This document shows, piece after piece, positions 3,762 to 25,013 of a stretch of DNA of 26,640 bases. The translations under genes and the position numbers were made by a program. Location of the stretch: the IMG/VR virus record IMGVR_UViG_3300017987_000317, positions 1 through 26,640 of that record; one strand, 5' to 3'. The stretch comes from a virus. The notes below the pieces were generated by a model. The model saw only the letters and a program-made list of their open reading frames with translations, made no database searches and was not told the DNA's origin. Within the stretch, counting starts at the first letter, position 1. Each line of letters opens with the position of its first letter.

Positions 3762-3831
3762 CAAAATAAACTAAATGTGATACTATAAAAATCAATAATT
3801 CGACGAATAGCCGCATATTAAAGATTAATCA
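3762..3831 (-). promoter_or_regulatory. Degenerate regulon-type promoter upstream of the metallophosphoesterase
   Basis: Plus-strand TTCGACGAATAG at 3799-3810 and AAAGATTAATCA at 3820-3831 resemble the regulon boxes and are again 21 bp apart. The nearest -7-like sequence is TATTTTG (3762-3768, minus sense), one base short of TAnnTTTG, and its distance to the box is 31 rather than 29. There is no overlapping palindrome. It is a weak sixth member. Confidence 0.4.
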
Positions 3832-4040
3832 CCAAACTTTCGCTTTAAATACTTTCTTACAAAAAACGAAACAGCCGTTAAAGCTATCGCACTACATACG
3901 CTTAAAAAAAAACCCAATATGCCGTTTATTATATCTTGAGTACTAAAATATATAACATTAGCACCTACGCTACCTACGCCTACATCTTTTAATTCATCTG
4001 CTAACTGAGCTTTTAGGTTTATAAGTTGCGATAATTTCAT
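3825..4040 (-). CDS. Small membrane protein after the tail genes
   Basis: A 71-aa protein with an N-terminal amphipathic helix (SQLINLKAQLADELKDVG), one strong transmembrane segment around residues 38-60 (IINGILGFFLSVCSAIALTAVSFF), and a basic C terminus RKYLKRKFGD. The topology, with a single helix and a positively charged tail, resembles many small phage holin-like or tail-associated membrane proteins, but the amidase lies over 20 kb away, next to another holin-like gene. It is the last gene of the structural block. Function not assigned. Confidence 0.55.
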   Translation of the reverse strand: MKLSQLINLKAQLADELKDVGVGSVGANVIYFSTQDIINGILGFFLSVCSAIALTAVSFFVRKYLKRKFGD

Positions 4041-5780: not shown

Positions 5781-8090
5781 ACTAATCAATTTATAATAAA
5801 CTTTAATCAAAAAATCATAATCACCTGTTGCATCTGCGTTTATGTCAAATAATAATGCTTCATTCTCCCATAGTTTAGCATCATTACCCGTTAGCCTTCG
5901 CGCTGTACCGTTGTTAATACTATCTAATAAATTAGTGCTATTTACCACCGTTGTAGTTTCTGAGCTGAAATATATTTGCGCTCCCGCCGTTGCGTAAGGT
6001 GTTGAGCCACTTGTTGGCAATATAGTTACGTGGGTTACATCTATAAACGTTCCGCTACCTTGTGCGCTTAATACAGTTGTTCCTGTTTGACCTGCTGCTA
6101 TCATTGCGCTTGTTAGTTCAAACTCAACCACTCCATCTATTTGCGCTGCTCCTTCTGTTATTTCTACACCGCCTACGCTCCCGTTAGGTAGCTCCCCTGC
6201 ATTAGCATTTGCCGTTGGCCTGCTAAATAATTGCCTACGTCTTATTAGTTTTGTTTGTGATGTGATGCCTGTTAAATCGGCATCTATTCGCCACCATCTA
6301 CCATCCCAAGTATTAGAAATTAAATCTTGTGTACAACTTAAAAATAGGTAAAACTCACTATTAAAACTTAACCTTGCGCTAAAGCTCTCATGGCAATAAA
6401 TAGTACCATCATATAGCTTTAAAGGCTCGTGATAATAACCTTGTATTGTTTCAACTGTTAGGTCTAATATTCTTTGGTAAGTTCCTGTATTACCTATTCG
6501 CCATGAATCACTCTTACTAATAGTGCCACTTGTTCCACTTGACTTAACCCATATTTTACCTGTTTGAAGTTCACCGTCAGCAATATTAGTTTTACCTTGA
6601 TTTAATACTTCATTATCTCCTATGCTTGCGTTTGTTGTAGTAGCGTAGAATACTTCTGTATCAGCGTAAAACTCACCATCTTCAAGGCTTACAGAGCTTG
6701 CCATTGTCCATGTTTCAGAAGTTGCGCTTGTGTTGCTGTAAGTATTACTTAAAGGGCTTAATAACTTTCTTTGTAGTGTATTAAAATAACAGCGAATAGT
6801 TATATCACCATCGGCGGGTAGCTCAGTTGTTACAATATTAAAATTACCACTTGCACCATAAACACCATCAGCAATTGATAGGCCACCTTTTGGTACTGTT
6901 AATATTTCATATTGGCTGCTTGATGTTTGCCATTGCTCACCATCCCAATAATAATTTGTACCACCACTTGCAGCTACTTTTATTTCTACATAAAGTATAG
7001 CCCTATAATTATAAAGCACACTTAAATTAGCCCCTGCAATAAAAGTATAATCGCCTGAAACATTTAACCCTACATCATTAACAATCGCCAAATATCCTAC
7101 ATCTTGCGCTGCGTTTGATGATTCTGTAAAATTAAATTGCCCAAAATCACGAGTTAAAAATAACCTTTCGTAATCAATCTCACACCGTTTAATAGCGGGT
7201 AAATAATTGAATTGATTATTAGCCGCCCTTGCATTATTTATATCGGTACTTGTAGCAAGTGTAAAATCTCTATTTGCGCTTGCCGTTGTGCTTAATTGTG
7301 TGTAATTATAAGCGTATGCCACTTCCTTAAAAGTAGCATCTTCACGCTCTACATACTGCTCAAACCTATAAGCTCCATTAGATAGGTATAACCTTGCGCC
7401 ATACGTTACACATATTTGGCTTAATACTTCCCATGCTGTTATATATTCACGCTCCCAATACTCATTAAAAATATTCCAAACTCTAACATCTACAAAAGCC
7501 AAACTTAAAGGGTCAGTAGTCGCGCCATATGTCATACTATCTTCCCAATAATCGCAGCTCGTAACTAAAAAAGGGTCACTTGTTGTTAGTAAACTTTGTA
7601 AGCCACCTTTAGCCAAACATTGAATTATTAGTTTTTGAAATGGTGTTGTTTGCGCTGCATCGCTATTAGAGTTATCGTATTGAGAAGTTTTTAATTTGCT
7701 TAAACCATCGACCGCCGTTATTTTATATTGATAGGGTTGCGCTGCTTCTTGCTCTTCTGTTATATCTTGAATAATCCAACCAAACCACTCTAATTCATAA
7801 CCGCTGCCTGTATCCTTGTATAATAATACTCTATATGTTTGTTGTTGCGATTGAACCAAAGAAGGTATAAAAGTGCTGTTAAAATAACCGCCTTCATTCC
7901 AACAAATAAACTCTAATGTAGAACTAATAATTTGCCCTGTTGGCTTATCTGTTTCGGGGTTATATCTTAATTGTGCGCTTGCTACTTTAAAGGTGTTTGA
8001 TAATGGTGAGCCTGTTTTATTGCTATCTATTACAATCTTATAACTAATATCACCGTGCGAATCAAATTCACTTGTTAGTATTGCTGCCAT
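5778..8090 (-). CDS. Large tail hub / tail-tip protein
   Basis: A 770-aa protein directly downstream of the tape measure, the position of distal-tail or hub proteins in siphoviruses. The N-terminal 170 residues (SHGDISYKIVIDS, then YRVLLYKDTGSGYELEWFGWI and YQYKITAVDGLSKLKT) read like the beta-rich ring-forming domain of hub proteins, which build ring layers at the tail tip. The middle is low in charge and rich in S, T, N and Y, as expected for beta-sandwich modules; the C-terminal 100 residues contain a VVEFELTSAMIAAG and VTHVTILP region similar to small virion domains. It overlaps the tape-measure stop by one base (TAATG). No peptidase motif is seen. Confidence 0.65.
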   Translation of the reverse strand: MAAILTSEFDSHGDISYKIVIDSNKTGSPLSNTFKVASAQLRYNPETDKPTGQIISSTLEFICWNEGGYFNSTFIPSLVQSQQQTYRVLLYKDTGSGYELEWFGWIIQDITEEQEAAQPYQYKITAVDGLSKLKTSQYDNSNSDAAQTTPFQKLIIQCLAKGGLQSLLTTSDPFLVTSCDYWEDSMTYGATTDPLSLAFVDVRVWNIFNEYWEREYITAWEVLSQICVTYGARLYLSNGAYRFEQYVEREDATFKEVAYAYNYTQLSTTASANRDFTLATSTDINNARAANNQFNYLPAIKRCEIDYERLFLTRDFGQFNFTESSNAAQDVGYLAIVNDVGLNVSGDYTFIAGANLSVLYNYRAILYVEIKVAASGGTNYYWDGEQWQTSSSQYEILTVPKGGLSIADGVYGASGNFNIVTTELPADGDITIRCYFNTLQRKLLSPLSNTYSNTSATSETWTMASSVSLEDGEFYADTEVFYATTTNASIGDNEVLNQGKTNIADGELQTGKIWVKSSGTSGTISKSDSWRIGNTGTYQRILDLTVETIQGYYHEPLKLYDGTIYCHESFSARLSFNSEFYLFLSCTQDLISNTWDGRWWRIDADLTGITSQTKLIRRRQLFSRPTANANAGELPNGSVGGVEITEGAAQIDGVVEFELTSAMIAAGQTGTTVLSAQGSGTFIDVTHVTILPTSGSTPYATAGAQIYFSSETTTVVNSTNLLDSINNGTARRLTGNDAKLWENEALLFDINADATGDYDFLIKVYYKLIS

Positions 8091-10390
8091 TATCTAAGCC
8101 TTTGGTTTGTATTCTGCGCACGTTCTAAAACTATTCTAAGGTCATTGCCTGCAATTTGAGTTACTAACCTTTCATTGCCACCGCCGCCCCTGTTAATCAT
8201 CCCAAATAAGTTGGCTTGTTGGCTTCTGTTAAGTATCATCTCACCGCTGTTAACTCGTGCCATTACCCTGTCACCGCTAAATGATGAGCCGTTAACGATA
8301 CCGCCGCTTGCAAATTTTGGTACTTTACTAAATCCTGCTTTTACTGCGCTAATTGCGCCACCTATTAATATTGGCAATGCTGCAAGTCCTGCTGGACCTA
8401 ATGATACGGCTAACTTTGTACTACTTAACACACCGTTTGCCAATGATTCAGAAAGTGCAACACTTATCGCGGCTATCGCTGTTTCAATCATAACAGCTAA
8501 AAAGCCTTGTAGTCCTGTTTCGGCTAAACCCAAACCTTGCACCGCTGCCCTTCCTATTTCTTGAAAGCCGATTGCTATTGTATGGGATAGTTGCGTGAAT
8601 GTATTTGCTATTTCTTCACTTGAAAAACCTAACCGTACTAAGTTTTCATGAGTAGTTTTGCTTAATCCTTCTATTAATGGTAAAACTCTCTGTGCAGTAA
8701 CCCCAACCGTTTCTAAGGTTGTATTAAATTCACCAAATTCTATACTTGCTTGACCTACTTTTGTTAATACTTTAGCATACGCCCCCGCTGCCTTTGTAGA
8801 ATCATCAATTAAGGTGACGTTTGTTTGAGTTGTTTTATTATTTAAATTTAGTTGCTCATTAACTCTTTTTTGCGCTTCTAATAAAGTTGAAAGTTCTTCA
8901 TTATTTTCATTTAATACTTTATTACTGTAGGCAACTATACCTGCTAAATTTATCTCTTCCCTATTTAATTTAGCAAGCTCGGCTTCATTTGCCGTTATTT
9001 TTTCAATTCTAATCTCTTCAAGCCTAATCTCGGATTTTATTAAATCTATTTGAGCATTACTTATAGCTTTTATTTTTTCAGCTAACCTTGCTTCTTGTGC
9101 TTGTAATGTTATTCTTTTTACAAACTCATCATTTACTTGTTTTGTAATATCTCTAAGGTCACCTAAAGTTGTTTTTTCAGTAATTAAATTGGGTAAATAA
9201 TCTTTGTACTGAGTATTTATTCTTTCTATTACCTTTCTTTTTGCTTCATTGCTTAATGTATTACTTTGAAGTACAGTAATTTGCTTGTTAAACTCGTCTC
9301 TTAAATCGCTTAAACTGTTAGTAACTTTTTCATTACCACCACTTAAAAAACCTAATGCAGAAGAAAGACCATCTAAAACTTTTCTAACAGTATGACCAAT
9401 AAAACCTGTACCACTTTCTAATGATAAAATAAAACCATCCCATGCACTTTTTAATAATGTTAACGAACCTTGCAAAGTGTTTAACTGAGTATCAGCCATA
9501 CCCTGTGCTGTGCCTGCACTTAGTTGTAAACTTTCATTTAAAGAATCAATTTTAGATACATTTTCTGCTATTATAACACCTACTGCAGCGTTTTCTTTGC
9601 CAAATAAATCCATAGCTGTTGCGGATTTATCAGCACTATTATTTACTTGCTCTAATAATTCTTGAAATGGCACTCCACGTTTTGCGGCTTCAAGCATTAT
9701 GTTTCTTAATCCTACACCTGCCGTTTCAGCTCTTACACCATTATTTGCAAGCACACCTAACATTGCAGTAACCTTACTTAATTCTACGCCTGCATTTTTT
9801 GCCACAGGGGCTACTTGCCTTATTCCTACTTCAAACTTTCCTATATCAAGCGCACTTTCTGTAAAGGATTTTGTCATTATATCTACTACCTTTTCAGTAT
9901 CGCTTGCCTGTAATCCAAATGATTGAACAACTGAACCTGCTAAGGCTGCCGCATTAGCTAAATCTGAGCCTGTCGCCTGTGCAAGATTTAGGATTGGTTT
10001 TGTTAGATTTAAAATGTCCTGCTCCCTAAAACCTAACTTAGCTAATTCAGTCTGTAACCCTGTAACTTGGGTCGCTGTATAGGCTGTTGTAGCCCCTAAT
10101 GATAATGCGCTATCTTTTAAGGCTTTTATCCCGTCTATACTTTTACCCGTAACAGCCGCTAAATTAGCTACACTTTGTTCAAAGTCTTTAATAGTGGCAA
10201 TACCATCAGTAATTAAAGCCCCGCCTGCGAATATTGCCCCGAAACTAAAAGCACCTTGTAAACTTTTACCAATTTTAGCTAATCGGTTTTTAAAACCTTT
10301 TGCCTTTTGTTCTGCACCATCTAAGCCCTTTTGCAACTTAGATAAATCAGCTTTTATCTGTACTACTAATTCTTGGTTGCTCTGTGCCAT
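8090..10390 (-). CDS. Tail tape measure protein, TP901 type
   Basis: A 766-aa protein that sets tail length and is packed inside the tail tube. It has an N-terminal coiled coil (IKADLSKLQKGLDGAEQKAKGF), a TP901-family core around residues 60-320 (QSVANLAAVTGKS, TAYTATQVTGLQTELAKLGF, NNGVRAETAGVGLRNIMLEA), a long charged helical region, and hydrophobic segments near residues 46-66, 625-650 and 665-690 (for example LGPAGLAALPILIGGAISAV) that probably interact with the host membrane at DNA entry. At about 1.5 angstrom per residue the tail would be near 115 nm. The C terminus ends ERAQNTNQRLR, a basic tail often seen in these proteins. Its start overlaps the gpT-like frame by 25 nt. Confidence 0.92.
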   Translation of the reverse strand: MAQSNQELVVQIKADLSKLQKGLDGAEQKAKGFKNRLAKIGKSLQGAFSFGAIFAGGALITDGIATIKDFEQSVANLAAVTGKSIDGIKALKDSALSLGATTAYTATQVTGLQTELAKLGFREQDILNLTKPILNLAQATGSDLANAAALAGSVVQSFGLQASDTEKVVDIMTKSFTESALDIGKFEVGIRQVAPVAKNAGVELSKVTAMLGVLANNGVRAETAGVGLRNIMLEAAKRGVPFQELLEQVNNSADKSATAMDLFGKENAAVGVIIAENVSKIDSLNESLQLSAGTAQGMADTQLNTLQGSLTLLKSAWDGFILSLESGTGFIGHTVRKVLDGLSSALGFLSGGNEKVTNSLSDLRDEFNKQITVLQSNTLSNEAKRKVIERINTQYKDYLPNLITEKTTLGDLRDITKQVNDEFVKRITLQAQEARLAEKIKAISNAQIDLIKSEIRLEEIRIEKITANEAELAKLNREEINLAGIVAYSNKVLNENNEELSTLLEAQKRVNEQLNLNNKTTQTNVTLIDDSTKAAGAYAKVLTKVGQASIEFGEFNTTLETVGVTAQRVLPLIEGLSKTTHENLVRLGFSSEEIANTFTQLSHTIAIGFQEIGRAAVQGLGLAETGLQGFLAVMIETAIAAISVALSESLANGVLSSTKLAVSLGPAGLAALPILIGGAISAVKAGFSKVPKFASGGIVNGSSFSGDRVMARVNSGEMILNRSQQANLFGMINRGGGGNERLVTQIAGNDLRIVLERAQNTNQRLR

Positions 10391-11033
10391 CGGGCTTTTA
10401 TTTTATTAGCTTTCTTTATAAACTCATCCCTACTTACATTAGGCTTTAACACCTTCTTTTGCCTATCAAAACTCAATTCTATAATATCGCTCGGCTTCAA
10501 GTTTTTACCCTTTCTTAAATGTGGTTGCATTACACTCCACATTATTAATCGGCTATTATGTAATTCAAACTCTTTAGCCTTTGCCCTTCCTTCGGCATAA
10601 CACCAATATTCATTAAGGGTCATTGCCCAAAATTGCTCAGGCAATAACCCTATTTCTAATGCTTCACGGTATAAATCACCGAAAGTTATTTTTTTTTATT
10701 CTCAGGGCTTTTAGCTTGGGCTTCTCCCAACTTTTCGCCAAAGAGTTCTACTTCTTGCAACTTGGCAACAATTCCGCTAAGTTCATCTTGCTTAATCTCA
10801 CTAAATATATTAGTAAATTGAGCTTTATTATAATTAAAATCAGTATCTTTTAAATCCGCATAAGCTTTACAAGCATAATAGATTAAGTCACTAATTTCAA
10901 AAATATTACCTTTTGCGAGTACATCACCTAACTGCGTTAAGTCTAACTTTTTAGCTTCGCAATAATACCTAAAGGCTAATAAACAAAACTGCCCCTTAAC
11001 CTTATGTTTTTTTAACTCAAATATGCCTGTCAT
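10366..11033 (-). CDS. Tail assembly chaperone fusion (gpG-T-like) made by -1 frameshift
   Basis: Predicted 222-aa frameshift product: 115 residues of the gpG-like frame, then 107 residues of the -1 frame. The gpG frame ends in N-K-K-K-stop on a run of nine A (minus strand, 10697-10689) followed at once by TAA. Slipping one base back reads ITFGDLYREALEIGLL, with no stop, into the frame 10366-10644, which contains PEQFWAMTLNEYWCYAEG, a typical gpT-like segment. No ATG precedes that frame, only a TTG, and lambda-like phages use the same fusion to recruit tail tube to tape measure. The frameshift is inferred from sequence; no stimulatory hairpin was evaluated. Confidence 0.8.
10686..11033 (-). 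CDS. Tail assembly chaperone, gpG-like
   Basis: A 115-aa mostly helical acidic protein placed between tail tube and tape measure, the conserved location of tail assembly chaperones. It starts MTGIFELKKHKVKGQFCLLA and includes SDLIYYACKAYADLK and IVAKLQEVELFGEKLGEAQ, then a charged end in KKK. It is the normal termination product; the longer fusion is described separately. It starts 4 nt after the tail tube stop. The encoded function is inferred from position and the frameshift arrangement rather than from recognised sequence motifs. Confidence 0.8.
   Translation of the reverse strand: MTGIFELKKHKVKGQFCLLAFRYYCEAKKLDLTQLGDVLAKGNIFEISDLIYYACKAYADLKDTDFNYNKAQFTNIFSEIKQDELSGIVAKLQEVELFGEKLGEAQAKSPENKKK
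10689..10697 (-). other. Slippery A9 site for programmed -1 frameshift
   Basis: Nine consecutive A residues on the minus strand contain the heptamer A-AAA-AAA in the phase needed for tandem -1 slippage, with the zero-frame TAA stop immediately after. The -1 frame remains open for 107 codons. Confidence 0.75.
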
Positions 11034-11037
11034 GCTC

Positions 11038-11439
11038 TTATGTATTATCTGCTACGGTTAATGTTCCATCACCTGTAAAAGATGCGCTAAAACTAACAGG
11101 GGCTTCCATTTCTGCACTAAATTCTACGTTGCTCAAATAAGCCGTTCCTGTAAAATCTACATCGCCTGCTGTTGAGCTGTCAAATACAATTGTAAAACTT
11201 GAACGGTTAACTATTTCATCAGCAAGGCTTTTAACATCGTAAGTATCTGTTGGGTCATATAAGCCTTCAAATGAACCTTCCCAACTTCTTAAACCTGCTA
11301 ATACTTCTCTCCAACCGCCTGAGCCTTTGGTAGTTGTTTCAGGTAAATCTTGGTTAATTGTTATACTTGCATTAGTTGTAGAACCAACGGTAACACCGTC
11401 AATATCTACTAAGTACAACGTTCCGTTTATTTTTGCCAT
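11038..11439 (-). CDS. Major tail tube protein, TP901-1 type
   Basis: A 133-aa protein forming the tail tube. It begins MAKINGTLYLVDIDGVTVG, followed by TNASITINQDLPETTTKGSGGW, a loop pattern with strand-ending TTKGS and W-E-x-x-xG-x-Y found in the TP901-1/phi13 tail tube family, and ends with FSAEMEAPVSFSASFTGDGTLTV, the conserved final strands. No added Ig-like domain is present. It lies after the terminator-protein-like gene and before the assembly chaperones, as expected. A possible -7 element (11454-11461) lies 15 nt upstream of the ATG, which would give this abundant protein an additional promoter. Confidence 0.88.
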   Translation of the reverse strand: MAKINGTLYLVDIDGVTVGSTTNASITINQDLPETTTKGSGGWREVLAGLRSWEGSFEGLYDPTDTYDVKSLADEIVNRSSFTIVFDSSTAGDVDFTGTAYLSNVEFSAEMEAPVSFSASFTGDGTLTVADNT

Positions 11440-15719: not shown

Positions 15720-16403
15720 TTAGTCTTTTTGAAGTGATTTAAAATAATTGTTAATATCAAAGTCAATCGGCTCATTATTTTCTTGAGTGCTTTCTTGCGG
15801 CTCACTATTAATAATAAGTGATTTTATTCTTTCCAATTCTATTTCAAGCATTGCAAATGTGTCGTCTGTGTACGTTCCTTTTCGCATTGCTTTTATTAGT
15901 ATATCCATTCTACTAAATAGCTCTTGCTTATCTTGCTTTGTTAGGCTTTTCATACTAACAACAGGTGTATTTTCATTAGCTCCCCACGTTACAGAACTAT
16001 ATTCAAATAATTTAGTTTCTTTTATATAGTTAGTTTCTTCGTTTTTTACATACTCTTCTTGAATAGGTATAATACCCACACTATGCTCAGTTATTAGCCC
16101 ATCTTCATACATTTTACGATAATCACCGCCTTTTAAATCGCTAACATAAGATGTTATTAAAAGCCCTGTATTATCTTCAATCATTTCAATAGGCTTGCCT
16201 ATAATGGTATTTGTATCGTGCTGAAATAGGTGCTTAATTCGGTGTGCGTTTTCTGTTATAGTTTTTTTGTAAGCTCCTTTAACTATAACATCACCGTGAG
16301 CATCTTTATTACCAAATGCGCTCACATACATTTGAATTTGACCTTTAGACATATCCATGTCCTTAATTTTTAGGTCAATATCTTTTGTAATAAACTGCTT
16401 CAT
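15720..16403 (-). CDS. Prohead protease, HK97 family
   Basis: A 227-aa serine protease that matures the capsid. Family motifs are visible: IQMYVSAFGNKDAHGDVIVKG, KHLFQHDTNTIIGKP with the catalytic His (H62, or H58), DGLITEHSVGI with the catalytic Ser (S108), and LFEYSSVTWGANENTPV. I start at the ATG at 16403. The open frame runs on to 16478, but that extension passes through the -7 element (16421-16428) and the terminator hairpin (16444-16469), and would add a non-family hydrophobic N terminus. The C-terminal 70 residues are acidic and may be a self-cleaved or scaffold-binding tail. It precedes the capsid gene in the same unit. Confidence 0.92.
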   Translation of the reverse strand: MKQFITKDIDLKIKDMDMSKGQIQMYVSAFGNKDAHGDVIVKGAYKKTITENAHRIKHLFQHDTNTIIGKPIEMIEDNTGLLITSYVSDLKGGDYRKMYEDGLITEHSVGIIPIQEEYVKNEETNYIKETKLFEYSSVTWGANENTPVVSMKSLTKQDKQELFSRMDILIKAMRKGTYTDDTFAMLEIELERIKSLIINSEPQESTQENNEPIDFDINNYFKSLQKD

Positions 16404-16420
16404 GTTCAAAGTAATTATTA

Positions 16421-16428
16421 CAAAAATA
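16421..16428 (-). promoter_or_regulatory. Promoter -7 element for protease and capsid
   Basis: Minus-strand TATTTTTG fits TAnnTTTG, 17 nt upstream of the protease ATG and directly downstream of the terminator hairpin of the sugar cassette. It has no regulon boxes and no palindrome, so it is probably a late or constitutive promoter. Confidence 0.55.
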
Positions 16429-16443
16429 CTAATAATAATAAAT

Positions 16444-16469
16444 AAAAAAGCCCCGTCGTTAAACAGGGC
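16444..16469 (-). terminator. Hairpin terminator of the sugar cassette
   Basis: Minus-strand stem GCCCTG / CGGGGC (with one G-T pair) around an 8-nt loop, followed by six T. It lies 35 nt after the stop of the gene at 16504-16725 and before the protease promoter. Confidence 0.78.
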
Positions 16470-16503
16470 TTCAATCAAAAATCAAACAGTAGTAAAGTGG
16501 AAG

Positions 16504-16725
16504 CTATGGAAGGGCAATATTAACTAATTCTGTTAACTTATAGTTTGCGCAATACGTTATATTTTCTACAATAAAGCCAAAGCATTCATTGTTCTCAGCA
16601 TACACCTTAACAATATCTTCTTTAATATCATGCTTTACACAAATAGCATCAAGCCTATCAAATAGCTCATCTGTTGTAATGTAAAAAAAAGGTAGTTCTT
16701 TTAGCGGGTAGATTTCTTTGCTCAT
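16504..16725 (-). CDS. Hypothetical protein at the end of the sugar cassette
   Basis: A 73-aa acidic protein beginning MSKEIYPLKELPFFYITTDELF, with KHDIKEDIVKVYAENNECFGFIVENI, ending LTELVNIALP. I do not recognise the family. Its ATG follows directly after the stop of the second acyltransferase gene, with no gap, and the cassette terminator lies just downstream, so it is the last gene of this unit. It may be unrelated to sugar metabolism. Confidence 0.6.
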   Translation of the reverse strand: MSKEIYPLKELPFFYITTDELFDRLDAICVKHDIKEDIVKVYAENNECFGFIVENITYCANYKLTELVNIALP

Positions 16726-23895: not shown

Positions 23896-23923
23896 ATCAG
23901 TTTAAAATTAGTTAACTGAATAT

Positions 23924-23931
23924 CAAAGGTA
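23924..23931 (-). promoter_or_regulatory. Promoter -7 element for the terminase/portal operon
   Basis: Minus-strand TACCTTTG fits TAnnTTTG, 29 nt upstream of the TTG start and directly after a terminator hairpin. It lacks the regulon boxes and the palindrome, so it is likely a late-class promoter. Confidence 0.6.
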
Positions 23932-23938
23932 ATAAAAT

Positions 23939-23973
23939 AAAAAAAAGCCCCGTACATCACAGACATACAGGGC
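23939..23973 (-). terminator. Hairpin terminator before the terminase genes
   Basis: Minus-strand stem GCCCTGTA / TACGGGGC (8 bp with one G-T pair; plus 23947-23954 and 23966-23973) with an 11-nt loop is followed by eight T. It separates the upstream small genes from the terminase promoter. Confidence 0.85.
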
Positions 23974-24006
23974 ACAAACAAAACTCTATTAAAAAAACGT
24001 ACTCAA

Positions 24007-24321
24007 TCACTTGACATTATCATATTTTTGCGCTAACTTCTTGTTTTCTTTTATAAGTTGATTCTCTCTATGGTTAAAGCACTCTTTTAAATCGTAGTAG
24101 TATTTAGTTTCATAACCCAAAATCATATTAAAATATTCGTGCAATGATTTAAACGGGTTACGCCTTTTAAAATATTCAGCATAAGCCAAAGGGCAATTAA
24201 TCTGAGCATAACCTAACACGCTTGTTCTTCTCATTGTGTTGGCTCGGCAAAACTCGATAGTATCCTTAATGTTTTTGATTTCTTCGGGTGCTAAGTGGCT
24301 ATGGTGGTGTAAGGTTTTCAT
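24007..24321 (-). CDS. Hypothetical His/Tyr-rich helical protein
   Basis: A 104-aa largely helical protein: MKTLHHHSHLAPEEIKNIKD, a segment with FCRANTMRRTSVLGYAQINC, and a C-terminal coiled-coil-like end RENQLIKENKKLAQKYDNVK. The two Cys and the His cluster at the N terminus could bind metal. No family is recognised. It is flanked by the hairpin at 24334-24362 upstream and the terminator at 23939-23973 downstream, so its transcription relies on readthrough or an unseen promoter. Confidence 0.6.
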   Translation of the reverse strand: MKTLHHHSHLAPEEIKNIKDTIEFCRANTMRRTSVLGYAQINCPLAYAEYFKRRNPFKSLHEYFNMILGYETKYYYDLKECFNHRENQLIKENKKLAQKYDNVK

Positions 24322-24333
24322 AGGTTTTAAAAA

Positions 24334-24362
24334 CCACCTTTCAGTGTTATTCTAAAAGGTGG
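24334..24362 (-). terminator. Hairpin terminator of the small-gene unit
   Basis: Minus-strand stem CCACCTTT / AAAGGTGG (8 bp) with a 13-nt loop is followed by five T. It lies 45 nt after the stop of the gene at 24408-24668. Confidence 0.78.
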
Positions 24363-24407
24363 CTGCACAAGCATTAAAGGTTTTAAGGTTATAAAAAATT
24401 TAATTAA

Positions 24408-24668
24408 TTACAAAAAATCTTTGATTAGCAATCCTATTAAAACTCCTAAAAAAACACATATATAAAATTCAAATGATTTTATGGAAATTAATTTATGGCT
24501 GTAATGTTTTTTACCTAATTCAAAGTAGTAAAGTTCTTTCTCTTTTATCTTCTCTTCAAAGAAATTAGTCAAAGCCCAATCAGGTGCTTGTTTATAAGGA
24601 AATTTAAGATGTGGAAAGTTTACTTTTAACTCTGTATATAGTTGGCTTTTTTTCTTTTTTAAATCCAT
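24408..24668 (-). CDS. C-terminally anchored hypothetical membrane protein
   Basis: An 86-aa protein with a basic start (MDLKKKKSQLYTELKVN), a middle with APDWALTNFFEEKIKEKE and a C-terminal hydrophobic segment FEFYICVFLGVLIGLLI near residues 66-82 with a short tail KDFL. The topology is a tail-anchored cytoplasmic domain. Its ATG lies inside the stop region of the gene at 24659-24820, so translation is coupled. It is the last gene of the unit starting at 25013 and precedes a hairpin terminator. Function unknown. Confidence 0.6.
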   Translation of the reverse strand: MDLKKKKSQLYTELKVNFPHLKFPYKQAPDWALTNFFEEKIKEKELYYFELGKKHYSHKLISIKSFEFYICVFLGVLIGLLIKDFL

Positions 24669-24820
24669 TCTACTTTACCATTTGAGCATTCTATATAAAC
24701 TTTACCTATTAAACCAAATTTGTTTTTTAATTCATGTGCTTTTTGTAACGCTTGATTAAATGAGTGGAAGCTGTTAAACTCCCACTCAAATATTTGATTC
24801 TTAATTTTATACAGGTGCAT
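24659..24820 (-). CDS. 53-aa hypothetical protein
   Basis: A 53-aa product beginning MHLYKIKNQIFEWEFNSFHS, with FNQALQKAHELKNKFGLIG in the middle and VYIECSNGKVEWI at the end: strand, helix, strand. It overlaps the end of the gene at 24807-25013 by 14 nt and the start of the next by 10 nt, which supports it as a real member of the unit. No family recognised. Confidence 0.55.
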   Translation of the reverse strand: MHLYKIKNQIFEWEFNSFHSFNQALQKAHELKNKFGLIGKVYIECSNGKVEWI

Positions 24821-25013
24821 TTGAAACTTTATTTACGTTAAATACTTGCTTAATTAACTCTATTTCGCTTGCACCGTAAAACTTTATCATTGTTGCCCAC
24901 TTACCACTTGTTTCGCCAAACTTTGACCATAAAACTTTACCGCCATTTGTTTTAGAGTGAAATTCGTTGATTTGGTTTTGTGTTGCTTCTGTTTCAATTA
25001 CTAAATAATTCAT
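24807..25013 (-). CDS. Hypothetical small protein, first gene after a regulon promoter
   Basis: A 68-aa protein MNYLVIETEATQNQINEFHS with GGKVLWSKFGETSGKWATMI and SEIELIKQVFNVNKV. A small alpha-beta fold is likely, but I recognise no family. The ATG is 21 nt after the -7 element. It is the first of three overlapping small genes (to 24408) that end at the terminator 24334-24362. Confidence 0.65.
   Translation of the reverse strand: MNYLVIETEATQNQINEFHSKTNGGKVLWSKFGETSGKWATMIKFYGASEIELIKQVFNVNKVSNAPV

Follow-up and report, generated by a model that had tools for sequence, protein, structure and literature searches.

The sequence analysed is a virus record of 26,640 bases (the window), in which the whole tail chaperone locus lies on the minus strand. 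A tail tube protein gene (11038..11439, minus; Phage_tail_2, E 2e-14) stands directly upstream of a pair of overlapping open reading frames (ORFs), the second of them in the -1 frame, and the tape measure protein gene (8090..10390, minus; PhageMin_Tail, E 1.6e-30) follows directly downstream, so that the gene order is tail tube, chaperone pair, tape measure. The first, 0-frame ORF occupies the gpG position (10686..11033, minus); it encodes 115 aa from an ATG at 11033 and ends in ENKKK, its 3' end reading AAT AAA AAA AAA TAA. The -1 frame segment in the gpT position (10366..10695, minus) begins KKITFGDLY, ends in KN before a TAG stop, and its end is overlapped by the ATG of the tape measure gene. 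In one relative (L016, from position 1072) the chaperone pair is nearly identical, but its tape measure protein has another N-terminal part than the one encoded at 8090-10390 in the window; by this comparison a mosaic boundary appears to lie right behind the chaperone genes.

The slippery run is an A9 at 10689..10697 (minus), read as the codons AAA AAA AAA and conserved as a -1 slip site in relatives. The 0-frame stop TAA (10686..10688, minus) follows the slippery heptamer directly, an arrangement that recurs in other lineages. Upstream, a TAA overlapping the start of the A run closes the -1 frame, which is therefore open only from within the A9; it begins with two Lys codons and goes on with ITFGDLY to the TAG ending at 10366. 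Because a T precedes the run, tandem slippage by -1 is possible solely on AAA codons two and three, which form the one tandem -1 heptamer in the window's run, A_AAA_AAA. The predicted fusion has 222 aa, that is 115 plus the 107 residues after KKK. An earlier note on this DNA had described nine A followed by a TAA in the zero frame, a -1 frame open for 107 codons and a 222-aa product; the arrangement proved exact and the numbers correct, and only the strand had gone unstated. The note had also held that the second frame has no ATG of its own, and indeed none lies ahead of the conserved core, the first ATG being inside the FWAM motif.

To the same note the two halves had looked like gpG and gpT of lambda. 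Position and architecture bear this likeness out, while sequence homology with lambda G and T does not: in Pfam and PHROG the halves share no detectable sequence family with either, and the first half has no Pfam or PHROG match of its own. Among eight aligned first halves two match phrog_2115, annotated 'tail protein'. The second half matches Phage_TAC_6 (PF09550) over 26 residues with E 4.4e-4 and 21.1 bits, which is below the Pfam gathering cut-off of 23.4; a match to the same family at E<=0.1 is found in all nine members of the second-half alignment. It also matches phrog_16333, whose function is not known, with E 3e-7. AlphaFold predicts helical folds for both halves, with pLDDT 71 (first) and 86 (second), and a PDB fold search gave no match for either. 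In BFVD, uncharacterised phage proteins make up most of the best matches to the first-half model, and rank 4 is a named tail assembly chaperone (probability 0.98 and TM 0.58, but E 0.39).

To collect relatives we used the tail tube gene as anchor, as it is independent of the slip site, and obtained two sets of loci. The chaperone halves used alone as queries found few loci (3 and 2), a search of named phages gave no first-half match and four weak second-half matches, and a tape measure scan of genome contigs found no relative. The first set comprises 106 loci, 91 with a -1 ORF pair and 15 without, and contains 65 distinct sites as judged by identical 120 nt. Most of the 15 end too soon past the tail tube gene; among the loci left out, L027/L111 have an A9 and end before 60 codons, and L032 ends soon past a second tube-like gene. 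For L036 and L037 the ORF pair was chosen by a hand rule. The second set, which includes four named phages, comprises 116 loci, of which 17 have less than 700 nt downstream, 3 lack a -1 pair, 32 are duplicates and 64 are distinct. Lineages were defined by clustering the second halves at 60% identity (single linkage), each with one representative, the first by name.

The three second-set loci without a -1 pair by our thresholds are L220, which is too short, L125 and L126. In L126 (Pelagibacter phage HTVC111P) an A_AAA_AAG (A6G) at 2741-2750 is followed by a TAA that ends the gene in the chaperone position, with no -1 ORF. L125 (Sinorhizobium phage phi3LM21; 2752, 2659-2898) has an annotated tail assembly chaperone and a next small ORF offset by -1, an A_AAA_AAC heptamer and a 44-codon -1 extension, and the record annotates the two ORFs as separate genes. 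In L086, one of the 15 first-set loci without a pair, the A9 and a TAG are kept at the chaperone site, some 380-400 nt beyond the end of the tail tube gene, while the downstream frame is disrupted and continues in unrelated-looking sequence; it is possibly a chimera or a decayed second half.

An in-phase X_XXY_YYZ heptamer together with a -1 ORF was found at 128 of 129 distinct sites: 65/65 in the first set, where the first -1 pair was taken, and 63/64 in the second, where a heptamer-bearing pair was preferred when there were several (the exception is L120). That at least 90% of the second set would carry the heptamer had been predicted beforehand. As a control, we took overlapping ORF pairs elsewhere in 25 representative loci; they had such a heptamer in 1 of 88 cases in the -1 relation and 0 of 41 in the +1 relation. 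Absence of a slippery sequence from related phages, which the earlier note had named as one finding that would speak against it, is not what we see. The note had also proposed to compare the length of the A run in relatives. The A9 recurs at 58 of the 128 sites, the remaining motifs being 11 A10, 19 A7, 3 A6, 34 GGGAAAG and 3 T6. Three near-identical contigs (L001, L002 and L003) keep the A9, and so does the divergent L015, which retains A9-TAA at 62% identity in the first half and 66% in the second. Within one cluster (60% identity, single linkage) of 47 new sites, 31 have GGGAAAG and 16 have A9, and the first-set relatives L021 and L039 also use GGGAAAG, which we take to be lambda's own heptamer. 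No ATG lies within five codons past the slip in any of the 128 -1 frames. Codon comparison of the second frame with three relatives gave dN/dS values of 0.24 (L016), 0.17 (L015) and 0.38 (L017); both frames are under purifying selection at the protein level.

The 0-frame stop stands immediately after the last heptamer at 76 of the 128 sites. Counted by lineage in the first set, it is adjacent in 8 of 18, where the local 0-frame stop density predicts 1.34 (P 1.5e-5 by simulation). An excess was then predicted beforehand for the new lineages and was found, with 4 of 11 (binomial P 0.007, taking a rate of 0.075). Adjacent stops follow A_AAA_AAA, A_AAA_AAT, A_AAA_AAG, A_AAA_AAC and G_GGA_AAG alike. 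The compact arrangement therefore recurs in unrelated lineages above expectation. In pea enation mosaic virus a stop 3 nt past the shift site is described as mattering (PMC5009743), and compactness alone could also explain the adjacent stop.

A predicted stimulatory RNA structure, which had escaped the earlier note, follows the run at 10589..10685 (minus). The 110 nt past the A run fold with -41.2 kcal/mol and a z-score of -6.18, none of 200 dinucleotide shuffles being as stable. The predicted fold consists of four stacked helices of 9, 6, 5 and 16 bp (36 bp in total), reaching from 10685 to 10589 and beginning 3 nt past the run, a spacer shorter than is usual for a stimulator. Of the 886 tiles (89 nt each) covering the whole strand, the two with the best z-scores, -6.13 and -5.71, lie here. 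When at most 60 nt downstream were folded, no structure showed at this site; longer stretches did show one. L016 keeps 36/36 pairs with 6 differences in the 110 nt, two of them one-sided changes at paired positions; L015 keeps 25/36 pairs in another folding register, with z-scores of -2.3 to -3.2 for 110 and 75 nt. Over 26 sites the mean z-score is -1.15 as compared to -0.34 in 814 control windows (p 0.016), and only 4 reach -2.5 or lower. As evidence the predicted hairpin is strong for the window's phage and its close kin, and it is no rule of the family. The idea that short slippery runs have stimulators and long A runs go without was not significant (Mann-Whitney p 0.06-0.12), and it is wrong for the window itself, where an A9 precedes the strongest structure.

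No Shine-Dalgarno-like element was seen upstream of the slip site, and the locus has no Rfam family and no tRNA. Shine-Dalgarno sequences are rare in the phage's genes (0/20 by pattern and 2/25 by duplex energy). Such rare use points to Bacteroidota, which suggests a host of that phylum for this phage. Elsewhere in the window, a small-gene region at 23911-24840 has several very stable folds (z -4.1 to -5.4) beside the ORF ends at 24007, 24408 and 24807; one of these folds fits a terminator pattern (23973-23947). A further stable fold (16382-16500; z -5.0 to -5.4) lies around the boundary between ORF 15720-16478 and ORF 16504-16725, and a second A9 run is at 3904-3912 on the plus strand (a T9 as the minus-strand genes read), inside the small ORF 3825-4040.

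The sequence arrangement, its conservation, the selection on both frames and the predicted RNA structure are what was obtained here. A -1 fusion of two putative tail assembly chaperone segments is strongly supported by the position of the pair, by the conserved -1 overlap with an in-phase heptamer in divergent relatives and by the purifying selection on the second frame. The best reading of the arrangement, and a probable one, is programmed -1 ribosomal frameshifting within a tailed phage's gene for its tail assembly chaperone. On this reading, ribosomes would mostly terminate at the TAA past KKK and yield the 115-aa chaperone. In a minority, tRNA-Lys paired with AAA codons two and three would slip back one base on A_AAA_AAA, and reading would continue as ATA ACT TTC into the 222-aa fusion. 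The slip would be favoured by the stable hairpin 3 nt past the run and probably also, as the earlier note had suggested, by the stop codon, here in the A site. If the two products work as lambda G and GT do, the shorter one may coat the tape measure protein and the longer one may recruit tail tube subunits. The slip itself, its ribosomal site, its efficiency and the roles of both proteins are in this way what we infer.

The same protein could also arise at transcription, a route absent from the earlier note, if RNA polymerase added one A at the A9 in some transcripts, alone or beside the ribosome, as an mRNA with A10 would encode the same KKK-ITF fusion. The coding sequence does contain a run of nine A, and bacterial polymerase is described as slipping efficiently at nine A (PMC5009743, PMC1088944), with selection against such runs evident in many genomes according to the literature. 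Slip sites with at least nine A were found in 14 of the first set's 18 lineages and in 5 of the 11 new ones. Elsewhere in the 18 representative loci of the first set, none of the 92 A runs of six or more is that long. The A9/A10 runs are not tied to one codon phase, all three being represented. Yet any run of nine A, in whichever phase it lies, includes an in-phase A_AAA_AAA. The ribosome alone could therefore account for run length, and every counted A9/A10 site does have the ribosomal heptamer. Relatives moreover use GGGAAAG, A7, A6C, A6G and T6, none of which is a 9-base run. As GGGAAAG and A9 swap within one cluster, the common requirement would be the ribosomal heptamer and not the A run, and the alternation between A9/A10, A7, A6N, T6 and GGGAAAG points to tandem slippage on the ribosome. 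The enriched adjacent stop and the hairpin likewise make sense for ribosomes and not for polymerase. A majority of runs of at least nine A had been predicted for the new lineages and failed at 5/11; by origin these were 0 of 6 from named hosts or named phages and 5 of 5 from IMG/VR. We consider polymerase slippage an unlikely source of the fusion, and a substantial transcriptional share hardly more probable. According to Atkins et al. both kinds of slippage may occur at one site. It is a tentative and rather doubtful thought that the runs of 9-10 A are kept because polymerase and ribosome both slip there, the ratio of short to long chaperone being partly set at transcription. With equally little confidence, the relatives may swap between such a dual mode and purely ribosomal sites (GGGAAAG, or A7 with a hairpin), as dnaX does between species. 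In the accessible parts of the literature on the two subjects, transcriptional slippage and the tail assembly chaperone are not joined as one mechanism. The earlier note had proposed mass spectrometry across the junction; both routes give an identical KKK-ITF protein, so protein data alone cannot separate ribosome from polymerase, and trypsin cuts at this junction.

Two further readings do without any slip. If the second frame were initiated independently, two separate proteins and no fusion would result, and the -1 frame does have one TTG, at 10644, 17 codons past its opening. This codon lies inside the conserved segment and the 16-bp helix, and the -1 frame of L015 has its earliest start codon, a TTG, 30 codons in, past the conserved FW core. 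Separate initiation also needs no heptamer, yet 128 of the 129 sites have one, and we regard it as very improbable. Homopolymers are error-prone, and an assembly or sequencing error in the run could have split one continuous ORF or left the second half a pseudogene. The same A9 in the other contigs (L001, L002, L003) and in the divergent L015, the frame change in 128 distinct divergent sites with differing motifs and phases, and the purifying selection on both frames leave an error next to no probability.

The programmed ribosomal frameshift has well-known counterparts. In lambda, the first ORF is described as undergoing a low-level -1 shift close to its end, which yields a C-terminally extended fusion that links the tape measure and tail tube proteins; the ratio is given as 30:1, and the shift is reported as widely conserved (PMC5009743). 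The window shares with lambda a chaperone gene with a -1 fusion arrangement, and differs in having A_AAA_AAA within an A9 in place of GGGAAAG, a stop directly behind the site and a strong predicted hairpin. HK97-type tail chaperone genes form a GeneTack cluster of frameshifted genes, for which two tested examples are given with 6% and 7% frameshifting (PMC3711429); by their description they share with the window a frameshifted tail chaperone gene, here a predicted one. Tools that predict tail chaperone frameshift sites are also described (PMC10885494). To Phage_TAC_6 the second half is linked only by its short match below the cut-off. In dnaX of Thermus thermophilus transcriptional slippage is reported at an A9 (PMC1088944), and both systems have a sense-strand A9 inside a coding region; the phage site differs in its adjacent stop, its predicted hairpin and its relatives without an A9.

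What we describe is thus a known trick of the lambda G/GT type in a well-supported new example, with a long run, an adjacent stop and an unusually stable predicted hairpin. It extends the tail chaperone frameshift to a phage lineage for which no named close relative was found in this analysis. The relatives further provide 128 natural variants of one switch, with interchange between GGGAAAG and A9/A10, recurrent adjacent stops and runs of a length at which polymerase slips. These variants make it testable whether an adjacent stop tunes bacterial -1 frameshifting, and whether slippage of RNA polymerase ever serves to tune tail assembly.
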